Shown here piece by piece: positions 49,747-55,319 of a stretch of 64,000 bases of DNA. Positions within the stretch are counted from its first letter, which is position 1; every line of letters begins with the position of its first letter. The DNA is from Candidatus Zhuqueibacterota bacterium (GTDB lineage Bacteria > Zhuqueibacterota > Zhuqueibacteria > Oceanimicrobiales > Oceanimicrobiaceae), in assembly GCA_029262005.1 (NCBI GenBank), contig JAJDAG010000038.1, positions 1 through 64,000 on the forward strand, given 5' to 3'. Under the pieces are notes generated by a model. That model was given only the letters and a program-made list of their open reading frames with translations, had not been told where the DNA came from and ran no database searches. A program made the translations under genes and the position numbers.

Positions 49747-51255
49747 TCAGTTATTCAAAGCAAAACCACGGCGGTCTTTGCGGCACTTTTCTTCCTCAAT
49801 CAGTTTTATCAAGCCGGCTTGGAGTGATTGTTCGGCCAAAGGCCACAAATCAACATTGACATCGTTGTACACAGTCTGAACCAGTTTTTTTATTGCTTGT
49901 GGTTTGCGTGTTAGTGAAGTCAGTATTTTGTCTTCGCGTTCCTGTCTGTGTTTGATGAAATGTTGTACCAGGAGTTTGCCTGTTTTCACAGCAGAACCGT
50001 GACTGGGATATATCGTCCCATCCGTGATGGTTTCGAGAAATTGCAGCGAGCGCATGTAAGTTGCCATGTGCCCCTCAGGTGGTGCAATTATGATTGTTGA
50101 GAGAGTGGAGAGCAGGTCCCCGGCGATGACGGCGCCATAGCGGCTTTCCCGAAATGTAAGGTGACCGGCTGCATGTCCCGGCGTGTGATAAATGTTCAAT
50201 TTCCACTCAGGTTCGCCATCCGGGGTTTTACCCAGCTCTAATTCATCGCCATGGTTAAGGGGCCGTTCAAAGTCGATATCGGTAAGGTGAGCGATCGTGT
50301 TTTTATGCGCGAAAACAGGCAGTCCGTACTTTTCCTGGCATGCCGACACAGCACCAACATGATCAGCGTGATGATGCGTGAGGAGAATCCCTTTCAACTG
50401 CCTGCCTTCAGCAACTCGTTTTTCCAGATAATCCCAAAGGCGCTGTTGTTCAGCAGGTTCCGTCGGGGCAGGGTCGATGATGTAGAGTTGTTCATCTCCA
50501 ACAAGATAGCAGTTCGTGTGGGTCGCCGGGGCCAATGTCCGGGTTTTTAATGGCAGCATGTGCACGCCCGGAGTAAAATAGATTTCGTGAATCGCACCTT
50601 GCTTGTACGCCTCCGCCTGGACCCTGACGCTGTGAATGCAATGCTCCCAGGTTTGCCCAAGAAGCTCGCGCAGCATAAAGATGACCGGTGGAACAATAGA
50701 CATTTCACCCTTTTGCCACAGGTTGAATGCGCGCTCGGCAGTATAAAAATCACCGCTGATCAGCTCCCCCTCGAGTATGGTTGGCTCTTGTCCTGCAGGC
50801 ATTTGCACCTTATAAAATTGTGTGTCATAACGAATTGGCGCAAATTCGGGTGTCAGCAGCGATACCACAAAGTGAAAATCTCGTGCATCAATTACCAGGC
50901 CCTCTTGCTGTAGAATTTCATTGAACCCTAGTTCTTCAGACAGTAAGTCTTTGCGGTACAGTGCCAGACGTTCTGCTGAAATAGCGGCCGAAGCACGCGC
51001 GAGAAGTACGCCGGTTTCTTCGAAAGTTTCCCTGACAGCAGCGGCTATGTACGGCAATGACTCCGCTGGTACGGCTTCACTGTGTTCAATCCTTACTTCC
51101 TTGTCCGGCAAATCAAGGGTACCGCCGGGATAGGCAAAATAGCCACCAAAAAATTTTAGCTTCGGGTTACGCTCAACCAGGTATATTTTTTTTGGGTCGC
51201 TTCTGTGGGTCAGGATAATAGTGACTGCTTTGCGTTCAGCCATATAAGCATCCAT
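49747..51255 (-). CDS. Nudix hydrolase fused to a metallo-beta-lactamase domain
   Basis: The 502-residue protein has an N-terminal Nudix domain (about 8-235): FAYPGGTLD then, after a 30-residue insert, AAAVRETFEETGVLLA, as in NUDT7/8/19 relatives. A metallo-beta-lactamase domain (about 245-440) follows, with THHHADHVGA, HTPGHAAGHL, AGDLLS and PSHG, closest to LACTB2-type proteins. A winged-helix-like tail (440-502) ends it. NUDT19-like enzymes cleave CoA derivatives and LACTB2 is an RNase; the fused reaction is unknown. All catalytic motifs are intact. ATG 51255 or 51243 are both possible starts. Confidence 0.85.
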   Translation of the reverse strand: MDAYMAERKAVTIILTHRSDPKKIYLVERNPKLKFFGGYFAYPGGTLDLPDKEVRIEHSEAVPAESLPYIAAAVRETFEETGVLLARASAAISAERLALYRKDLLSEELGFNEILQQEGLVIDARDFHFVVSLLTPEFAPIRYDTQFYKVQMPAGQEPTILEGELISGDFYTAERAFNLWQKGEMSIVPPVIFMLRELLGQTWEHCIHSVRVQAEAYKQGAIHEIYFTPGVHMLPLKTRTLAPATHTNCYLVGDEQLYIIDPAPTEPAEQQRLWDYLEKRVAEGRQLKGILLTHHHADHVGAVSACQEKYGLPVFAHKNTIAHLTDIDFERPLNHGDELELGKTPDGEPEWKLNIYHTPGHAAGHLTFRESRYGAVIAGDLLSTLSTIIIAPPEGHMATYMRSLQFLETITDGTIYPSHGSAVKTGKLLVQHFIKHRQEREDKILTSLTRKPQAIKKLVQTVYNDVNVDLWPLAEQSLQAGLIKLIEEEKCRKDRRGFALNN

Positions 51256-51355: not shown

Positions 51356-51384
51356 TTGACTTTAACAATGTCAGCATATATATT
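51356..51384 (+). promoter_or_regulatory. Sigma-70-type promoter of the putative structured RNA
   Basis: TTGACT at 51356-51361 and TATATT at 51379-51384 are separated by 17 bases, the same -10 hexamer as the proS promoter. Predicted start is near 51391, and the transcript would end at the terminator 51582-51609. Confidence 0.65.
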
Positions 51385-51390
51385 AAAACT

Positions 51391-51609
51391 AATTCCTAAA
51401 GCCGGGTATTTAACCAGGGGAATGCCGGGTGATTGTTGTAACGCCCTGAAAAAGGAGGTGATTCTATTTCTAGCAAATTAGATATAGAGACCTCCGCAAG
51501 AACCTGCTAAACCAGTTGGTCAATCAATCGATCTGAAGCTAAATAGGAAAGCAAAGTTCTTCGGAGTTTTCTGAACGGTATAGCCCCGCTATTTGGCGGG
51601 GCTTTTTTT
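51391..51609 (+). ncRNA. Putative structured RNA or ferritin leader, about 215 nt
   Basis: Between promoter and terminator the sequence forms several stems. A 16-bp hairpin (GGAGGT at 51454-51459 with ACCTCC at 51490-51495, then TCTATTTCTA with TAGATATAGA) has one mismatch, a small bulge and a 6-base loop. AAGAAC (51498-51503) pairs with GTTCTT (51556-51561), and CAGGG (51415-51419) pairs with CCCTG (51444-51448). The first stem buries a perfect Shine-Dalgarno AAAGGAGGTGA. The only short frame after it would start at a non-ATG codon. No known RNA family is recognised. It could be an independent sRNA or a regulated leader of the ferritin gene 150 bases downstream. Confidence 0.55.
51582..51609 (+). 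terminator. Intrinsic terminator of the putative structured RNA
   Basis: AGCCCCGC (51582-51589) and GCGGGGCT (51596-51603) form a perfect 8-bp GC-rich stem with a 6-base loop, followed by seven T. No protein gene precedes it on this strand within 1.8 kb. Confidence 0.88.
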
Positions 51610-51757
51610 GTTTGATCAATTTATAACATAGTTTCCGTGAGTTGAACTGAGATATAAACAAAAAAATGCTTTATTTTGTAACATCATCTCGATATATTAA
51701 CCTTCTTTTTAAGGTGTTCTGTTATTGAATTTTGCTTGTTAATCTGGAGAATTGGAA

Positions 51758-52258
51758 ATGATCAACAAAAATGTAGAAGAAGCCCTGAATGTGCAAGTTC
51801 AAGCCGAGTTTTCTTCGGCCTATCTGTATCTTTCAATGGCAGCCTATTGCGAATCAATAAGCCTGCCCGGCTTTGCGCATTGGATGCGTTTGCAACATGA
51901 GGAAGAGACTGCACACGCATTGCGGTTGTTTAATTTTGTCATCGATCGCGGTGGTCATATTGATTTGCGTGCCATAGAAAAACCGGTAGGATCTTTTGAG
52001 TCACCGCACAAAATGTTTGATGAAGTTTTGGCGCATGAGCAGTTGATAACGGAAAAGATTCACAATTTGTATGCGCTATCGGTTAAGGAAAACGATTATC
52101 CGACTCAGGTTGAAATGCAGTGGTTCATTAGTGAGCAGGTTGAAGAAGAAAAGAATGCGGGTGGCATTGTTGAGCAGTTAAAATTTGTCGGTGACAGCAG
52201 CTCGGCGCTGTTAATGCTCGATAGAGAAATGGGAGTCCGCCTGACAGAGGCCAAGTAG
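51758..52258 (+). CDS. Ferritin
   Basis: A 166-residue non-heme ferritin that stores iron as a ferric core in a 24-mer. The four-helix bundle shows the ferroxidase ligands in EFSSAYLYLSMAAYCES, HEEETAHALRLFNFV and QWFISEQVEEEKNAGGIVEQL. It matches the bacterial FtnA type with no heme-binding Met. GGAG lies 8 bases before ATG 51758, which is preferred over the in-frame TTG at 51752. A putative structured RNA and terminator lie upstream. Confidence 0.94.
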   Translation: MINKNVEEALNVQVQAEFSSAYLYLSMAAYCESISLPGFAHWMRLQHEEETAHALRLFNFVIDRGGHIDLRAIEKPVGSFESPHKMFDEVLAHEQLITEKIHNLYALSVKENDYPTQVEMQWFISEQVEEEKNAGGIVEQLKFVGDSSSALLMLDREMGVRLTEAK

Positions 52259-54218: not shown

Positions 54219-55319
54219 ATGAATACTCTGCATAAATTGGTTTTCACTGACTCAAGAAACCTGTCAACCATTGAAACAGAATCAATTGATTTGGTTGTGA
54301 CTTCACCGCCTTATCCCATGATTGAAATGTGGGATGCCTTATTTGCTGAACTAAACTCGGATATTGGTAGTGCGATAGCTGAGTCTGATGGAAAATCAGC
54401 ATTCAATTTGATGCATGCCGAGCTGGACAAAGTGTGGCTTGAGCTGGAACGAATCGTTCGGCCCAGTGGGTTTGTTTGTATCAATATCGGTGATGCAACA
54501 AGAACGCTTGGCGATGAATTTGGTCTTTATTCGAATCATTCGCGCATTATTAACAGCATGACTAAAATGTCGTTTTGTGCGCTCCCACTTATTCTCTGGC
54601 GCAAAACGACCAATGCACCCACCAAATTTATGGGTTCCGGTATGCTGCCCGCAGGCGCTTATGTGACTCTTGAACATGAGTACATTTTGATTTTTCGCAA
54701 AGGTGGCAAGCGGCATTTTAAGACTGAGGAAGAAAAGGGTTGCAGGAATGCAAGCGCCTTATTTTGGGAAGAACGCAACAAATGGTTTTCCGATTTGTGG
54801 GATTTGAGCGGCGTTAGACAGACATTGAATAATTCGAAATTGCGAGAGCGAAGCGCTGCTTATCCGTTTGAGTTATCTTACCGGTTGATAAATATGTATT
54901 CAGTAAAGGGAGACATGGTTTTAGACCCTTTTCTCGGCACCGGCACGACCATGTTTTCGGCCATGGCTTCTGAGAGAAACAGCATCGGCGTTGAATATGA
55001 TTCTGACTTCAAAAATACAATTATTGAGAATATGGGGGCTGTTGCAAGGACTGCGAATCAGCGTATGTTGCAACGGCTACGCGAGCACCAGGCCTTTATG
55101 GATGACTATATCAAATTGAAAGGGGAACCAAAATATAAGAACAACCATTTGGGTTTTCCCGTTGTCGCCAGACAAGAGCGGGAGATGCTGCTGTCCACGA
55201 TTGCCAAATGCAAGTTCGATGGTGAGTCATCTTTTGCTGTGGAATACAAAAAAGTTGACATGGCGAATCTGAATTCAAATAGCGACGTAACAATTCAAGG
55301 GGACGTACAGGCGGTGTAA
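54219..55319 (+). CDS. Site-specific DNA methyltransferase (N4-cytosine/N6-adenine type)
   Basis: The 366-residue enzyme has the catalytic motif TSPPY at 28-32 before the AdoMet motif DPFLGTGTT (about 236-244), the beta-class order. The SPPY form favours N4-methylcytosine, though N6-adenine cannot be excluded. Between them lies a variable region with a DNA-recognition-like segment. Both catalytic and cofactor motifs are intact. No restriction endonuclease or specificity gene is adjacent on either side, so it appears solitary. The target sequence cannot be predicted. Confidence 0.92.
   Translation: MNTLHKLVFTDSRNLSTIETESIDLVVTSPPYPMIEMWDALFAELNSDIGSAIAESDGKSAFNLMHAELDKVWLELERIVRPSGFVCINIGDATRTLGDEFGLYSNHSRIINSMTKMSFCALPLILWRKTTNAPTKFMGSGMLPAGAYVTLEHEYILIFRKGGKRHFKTEEEKGCRNASALFWEERNKWFSDLWDLSGVRQTLNNSKLRERSAAYPFELSYRLINMYSVKGDMVLDPFLGTGTTMFSAMASERNSIGVEYDSDFKNTIIENMGAVARTANQRMLQRLREHQAFMDDYIKLKGEPKYKNNHLGFPVVARQEREMLLSTIAKCKFDGESSFAVEYKKVDMANLNSNSDVTIQGDVQAV

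Follow-up and report, generated by a model that had tools for sequence, protein, structure and literature searches.

What is encoded between positions 51356 and 51757 of a 64,000-nucleotide stretch of a Candidatus Zhuqueibacterota genome (contig JAJDAG010000038.1; this whole stretch is called the window), upstream of a ferritin gene? A first-pass annotation described a highly structured RNA with its own promoter and terminator, and suggested either iron-related control or an independent small RNA. Judged by its sequence relatives, the region holds one copy of a small RNA that had not been described before and occurs in several bacterial phyla; this RNA is probably a very small messenger under regulation, and not an iron switch. 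A search of the open-access literature found no prior description of this RNA, or of a similar structured small RNA with an AUU start.

Architecture of the RNA

The locus contains the following features:

51356..51384, + strand: sigma70-type promoter TTGACT-17-TATATT, by consensus match; TTGACT(TTTTTCA) stands at the same place in family homologs
51393..51398, + strand: putative 5' strand of P1, UUCCUA, complementary to UAGGAA at 51544-51549
51401..51430, + strand: hairpin P2 with an internal mismatch and CAGGG in its loop, supported by covariation
51415..51419, + strand: pseudoknot strand CAGGG, pairing with CCCUG at 51444-51448
51444..51448, + strand: pseudoknot strand CCCUG, by complementarity to CAGGG, 5 nt upstream of the Shine-Dalgarno (SD) core
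51452..51464, + strand: extended SD AAGGAGGUGAUUC, complementary (one G-U) to the 16S rRNA 3' tail GGAUCACCUCCUU(U)
51454..51495, + strand: hairpin P3 sequestering the SD (GGAGGU with ACCUCC), with an invariant base and a covarying mid-stem
51466..51510, + strand: 14-codon ORF with AUU start and UAA stop, product ISSKLDIETSARTC, frame kept in homologs
51492..51503, + strand: 5' strand of P4, CUCCGCAAGAAC, competing with P3 for CUCC
51505..51553, + strand: hairpin region P5 inside P4, confined to the long form, that of the window's family
51556..51566, + strand: 3' strand of P4, GUUCUUCGGAG; P4 covaries in gammaproteobacterial homologs
51582..51609, + strand: intrinsic terminator, stem 51582-51603 plus U tract
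51758..52258, + strand: ferritin gene (PF00210, E=3e-39), a neighbour judged to lie outside the element

The promoter, which matches the consensus at 10 of 12 positions, and the terminator are both present as first described. As isolated consensus matches both are unremarkable, and the promoter is weak by itself: three promoter-like sites were found where shuffled sequences give 1.9, and one terminator where 0.5 is expected. The promoter sequence does recur among family homologs, and terminator-like hairpins were detected in 74 of the 87 homologs. The predicted transcript of about 220 nt compares with a size of roughly 150-220 nt across the family. Folding of 51388-51612 gives a minimum free energy of -70.1 kcal/mol (z = -2.74; 1 of 200 dinucleotide shuffles was as stable), and the three elements noticed earlier are all in this fold: a 16-bp hairpin sequestering AAGGAGGTGAT, a long-range stem and a short stem.

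The size, the stand-alone layout and the GGA motifs could suggest a divergent member of a known family, such as 6S, tmRNA, SRP or a CsrA-binding small RNA. Rfam 15 gave no match at the gathering threshold for the window and 15 homologous loci, in agreement with the earlier view that no named family fits, and the sub-threshold matches were weak and at chance level. ARAGORN found no tRNA or tmRNA in the window. A conserved SD followed by an ORF fits none of these four families; unlike tmRNA, the ORF described here has an SD of its own. Since conservation across phyla also rules out a chance structure, an explanation by a known family or by chance is hardly credible.

Distribution and gene context

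A DNA search of 60 related genomes located the element in five further members of the window's family and in two to three more genomes of the class. Their alignment revealed a common promoter, fold and terminator, with a long form in the window's family and a short form. The covariance model R1 found the RNA in 17 of 63 genomes of the window's class and in 18 of 82 of the phylum. An exact pattern, run over 84,980 species genomes, returned 105 stretches, most of which are the same RNA. The record titles of these matches include KSB1/Caldithrix/Calditrichaeota, Ignavibacteriae, Bacteroidetes, Chitinivibrionales, Lentisphaerae, Nitrospina and Gammaproteobacteria (OM182, K189A, Pseudohongiella and Pseudomonadales MAGs), but these are depositors' names and some are loose: L103, titled Bacteroidetes, is identical in sequence to G048 from the window's class. 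On gammaproteobacterial copies R1 reached E-values, rough as those of our own models are, down to 5e-13, as compared to 0.006 or worse for coding false positives. Pattern matches in coding regions (L029, L035, L038, L053, L063, L067, L070, L080, L090, L101, L118, L129 and L131) were rejected as such.

Later models detected the RNA in 4 of 369 genomes of a gammaproteobacterial class sample, 3 of 24 in one gammaproteobacterial order, 5 of 295 in the order of a Pseudohongiella genome, 5 of 395 in the phylum of L041, 3 of 289 in the phylum of the Lentisphaerae record and 7 of 168 in that of the Chitinivibrionales record; owing to sampling and to strict filters in the large searches, all such distribution counts are lower bounds. 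Most of the genomes are MAGs. Those that carry the RNA have one copy each, except G1482 with two divergent copies (L165 and L167), each of which has an AUU-start ORF that ends in Cys-stop. A plasmid DNA search with the window gave no match. In one genome of the window's class an isolated GAAAGGAGGTGATGCTATTTCTAGCA lies upstream of a long ORF (L007:1495-1530); it matches the SD and the first ORF codons but not the rest, R1 has no match in that genome, and the sequence is either a remnant or a coincidence. At another locus (L002:1820-2100) a sequence of about 200 bp containing 'attccttgttcgatattcaagt' is tandemly repeated downstream of the RNA.

The ferritin gene does begin about 150 bases downstream of the RNA, at 51758. 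This proximity, repeated in L003, L004 and L006 and with a gap in L040, is what could recommend a cis-acting leader, attenuator or riboswitch, here one that places ferritin under iron control. The association is confined to the window's own family. Other homologs stand beside genes for PNPOx-like and LysR proteins, an Lhr-type helicase and DUF6164, ComEC, PBP, glutaminyl cyclase and others, with no conserved linkage to iron genes; of the 60 loci where the first gene downstream could be read, 54 have it on the opposite strand. With its own terminator and no conserved co-oriented gene behind it, the RNA is very improbable as a cis-acting element, and iron control through ferritin was dropped. 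Since the neighbours differ between groups and the next gene usually faces the other way, the product would act in trans. The proposal of an independent small RNA therefore stands as far as a stand-alone RNA is concerned, but its noncoding premise is probably wrong, given the conserved, translated-looking micro-ORF.

Other genes near the RNA in the window are those for a metallo-beta-lactamase fold protein with a BLACT winged helix and a weak NUDIX match (49747-51255, divergent from the RNA), a eukaryotic-like protein kinase (PF00069, 48838-49722), and, near the ferritin, gpm and ZIP genes, an ORF with a TSPPYP motif typical of DNA methyltransferases (54219-55319).

A short reading frame behind the Shine-Dalgarno

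16S rRNA has a single-stranded 3' tail, GGAUCACCUCCUUU, to which the SD sequence conserved in the family, AAAGGAGGUGAUCC, is complementary; the match extends over about 14 nt. In genomes of the window's family the 16S rRNA ends in GCGGCTGGATCACCTCCTTTC. An ORF begins three nucleotides downstream of GGAGGUGAU, or four in the case of L016 and L151. The first-pass annotation held that no protein frame explains the region; this cannot be maintained, as the SD serves a 14-codon, AUU-start ORF that is in frame across phyla. In the window it reads AUU UCU AGC AAA UUA GAU AUA GAG ACC UCC GCA AGA ACC UGC UAA, that is ISSKLDIETSARTC followed by stop, with a first residue that would be read as fMet. A protein-coding gene is present in the interval only in this limited sense.

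Among 87 unique homologs the start codon is AUC in 53, AUU in 25, AUA in 4, AUG in 3 and UUG in 2, with no others, so that 82 begin with AUU, AUC or AUA. The ORF has 13-14 codons in 81 of them and ends with UAG, UAA or UGA, located 15-21 nt past a conserved Ala/Thr codon in 86. None contains an early stop in this frame, as compared to 31 and 82 in the other two. Column-wise shuffling predicts about 1400 stop-containing pairwise codon comparisons; zero were observed. The distance from the start to the Ala codon (GCC) is 21 or 24 nt only, showing that indels keep the frame. A GUG inside the SD was considered as the start, its +1 frame being open in many gammaproteobacteria, and was rejected because that frame has early stops in 31 of the 87 homologs.

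The ORF rule was recognised from L134 and L135, and 17 non-duplicate members found later serve as a held-out set (L137-L139, L141-L143, L147, L148, L150, L151 and L161-L167; L141 and L166 were read by eye). Each of the 17 starts at the expected place with a legal or near-cognate codon (AUG in six, GUG in one, AUU or AUC in the others) and reaches a stop in this frame after 13-15 codons, as in MSDMQKGASGDAC, VSQSSSCGASGGTF, ISTILTQGASGEAC and ISSNKLIGTPGTGC, each followed by a stop.

Is the peptide itself under selection? One explanation of the locus is a micropeptide gene: the functional molecule would be a product of 13-14 aa with the pattern I/M-[SN]-[SN]-x(3-5)-G-[AT]-S-[GE]-x-x-C/R, and the RNA structure would do no more than control how this product is translated. 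Several residues are indeed kept by differing codons: Gly by GGA, GGC, GGG or GGT, Ser3 by AGT, AGC or TCA, and Ala-Ser by GCC TCC, GCT TCC, GCT TCT, GCC TCT or GCA TCT. Most non-gammaproteobacterial members also end in Cys or Arg. Against this, the middle and C-terminal residues vary, and the Gly-Ala-Ser codons overlap P3 and P4; as both helices overlap the ORF, structure may account for some of the apparent codon conservation. A test over the whole ORF detected no amino-acid-level selection: the synonymous fraction, 0.22 in frame, compares with 0.205 (sd 0.008) after column shuffling, the BLOSUM score is below that of shuffles, and other frames do equally well in this test. In the absence of a clear synonymous excess we do not claim a functional peptide, and we regard a micropeptide gene as unlikely. 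With a synonymous fraction near the shuffled value and a lower BLOSUM score, the peptide itself may not matter. Because the frame is kept with variable residues, as in regulatory short ORFs, translation itself may be the function.

Competing helices and a possible initiation switch

The family shares the P2 hairpin, a pseudoknot between its CAGGG loop and CCCUG, the SD of about 14 nt, the short ORF and a CCUCC segment with two competing pairings. By comparative sequence evidence P2 is the best supported helix: across 84 sequences every pair but one shows changes on both sides, and nearly every pair occurs as several standard pair types. A model of P2 and P3 contains 346 cells with both-sided changes as compared to 110 in shuffles (0 of 500 shuffles as high), though in an alignment that was fitted to the model and hence leans towards it. 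This signal, far above slid controls, comes mainly from P2 and also from the middle of P3; the pairs at the base of P3 never vary and thus provide no covariation support. Compensatory changes, proposed earlier as support for all three stems, were found for P2 and also for P4, but not for the base of P3. The pseudoknot, located 5-7 nt upstream of the SD core across the family, is nearly invariant, with a matched change to CGGGG/CCCCG in L150, L162 and L163 and other paired changes in L165 and L167. P1 is clear only in long-form family homologs (CCUAGU/ACUAGG in L002-L006), and P5 is absent from the short-form loci L008 and L009.

The CCUCC segment, which lies inside the ORF, has two possible partners, the SD (in P3) and a GGAGG-like strand further downstream (in P4), so that the two helices are mutually exclusive and cannot coexist. 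For P4, 25 gammaproteobacterial sequences give a covariation score higher than that of any of 500 shuffles or any slid control, with matched changes in L054 and L134. By predicted energy P4 is the preferred helix in most members, and P3 in the window; these model values ignore pseudoknots and differ by a few kcal/mol only. With the SD blocked in the folding calculation, CCUCC re-pairs downstream in 95% of the sequences.

These features are best explained, we believe with moderate confidence, by a new family of structured micro-mRNAs, free-standing and spread over several phyla, in which initiation is gated by the P3/P4 switch and by a start codon restricted by initiation factor IF3. P3 would form first during transcription and hide the SD, which would be exposed once P4 forms or once a 30S subunit takes it. 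The very strong SD would recruit 30S subunits and compensate for the near-cognate start, which in turn would make initiation depend on IF3 and on initiation stringency, as in infC. A ribosome passing through the ORF would melt P3, P4 would form behind it, and the RNA would be kept open. The output in trans could be the micropeptide, the state of the RNA, or both. The role of IF3 is proposed by analogy, and members with AUG, UUG or GUG starts would escape this control.

A different view is that of a regulatory RNA which would trap or sense free 30S subunits by means of its poor start codon and its complement of about 14 nt to the 16S tail, with translation of the ORF as a by-product. The SD is conserved as far as the single-stranded 16S tail reaches, even at GA/GG positions that are bulged in P3; this agrees with the idea, as do near-cognate starts in 82 of 87 homologs and the pseudoknot beside the SD, a feature of other 30S-interacting leaders. 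Yet an in-frame stop within 13-16 codons and the complete lack of early stops need elongation to matter, and AUG-start members exist. We give a 30S-binding RNA little credence, and a purely anti-16S noncoding RNA had been demoted once the in-frame ORF was recognised. A more speculative reading, offered tentatively and in our judgement rather doubtful, would make the RNA a widespread class of trans-acting RNA, new to science, that serves as a readout of translation initiation itself. The extreme SD, the IF3-restricted start and a translation-driven P3/P4 fold switch would set its state, which would report free 30S subunits or IF3 activity, and the micro-ORF would be a sensor instead of a protein gene.

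If translated, the micro-mRNA would offer a natural means to probe start-codon stringency and the supply of ribosomes, and would be to our knowledge the first RNA family in which a full-length SD is systematically combined with start codons restricted by IF3. Rfam and gene callers have missed it because the ORF has only about 14 codons and starts with AUU, AUC or AUA. Sequestered SDs in other 'noncoding' RNAs may likewise belong to non-AUG micro-ORFs.

Free-standing small RNAs with a short ORF are known from SgrS/SgrT, Spot 42/SpfP and RNAIII/hld. The present RNA shares this layout, but has no known target pairing, a non-AUG start, a spread over several phyla, and the SD-ORF switch as its conserved core. 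Leader peptides and attenuators of the trpL, tnaC and ermC type also combine a short ORF with mutually exclusive hairpins and keep the frame with variable residues; in contrast to these, there is no regulated gene in cis here and the transcript ends at its own terminator. As to the start codon, IF3 represses noncanonical starts including those of infC and sigR (PMC5472188), and in Staphylococcus aureus extended SDs drive AUU and AUA starts (cvfC1/ccpN, PMC13009471). The autoregulated infC (AUU start) and sigR (GTC start) share with our RNA a near-cognate start, which in their case is repressed by IF3, and cvfC1/ccpN the near-cognate start with an extended SD. All of these are protein genes of at least 61 codons, as opposed to an ORF of about 14 codons in a free-standing structured RNA with a putative IF3 dependence. 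Finally, type I toxin mRNAs such as tisB, for which a pseudoknot is described as essential (PMC7708055), resemble the present RNA as small structured mRNAs with a sequestered ribosome-binding site. In contrast to type I toxins, the 13-14 aa peptides of this family are polar and not hydrophobic, as exemplified by INSQSIKGASELN.
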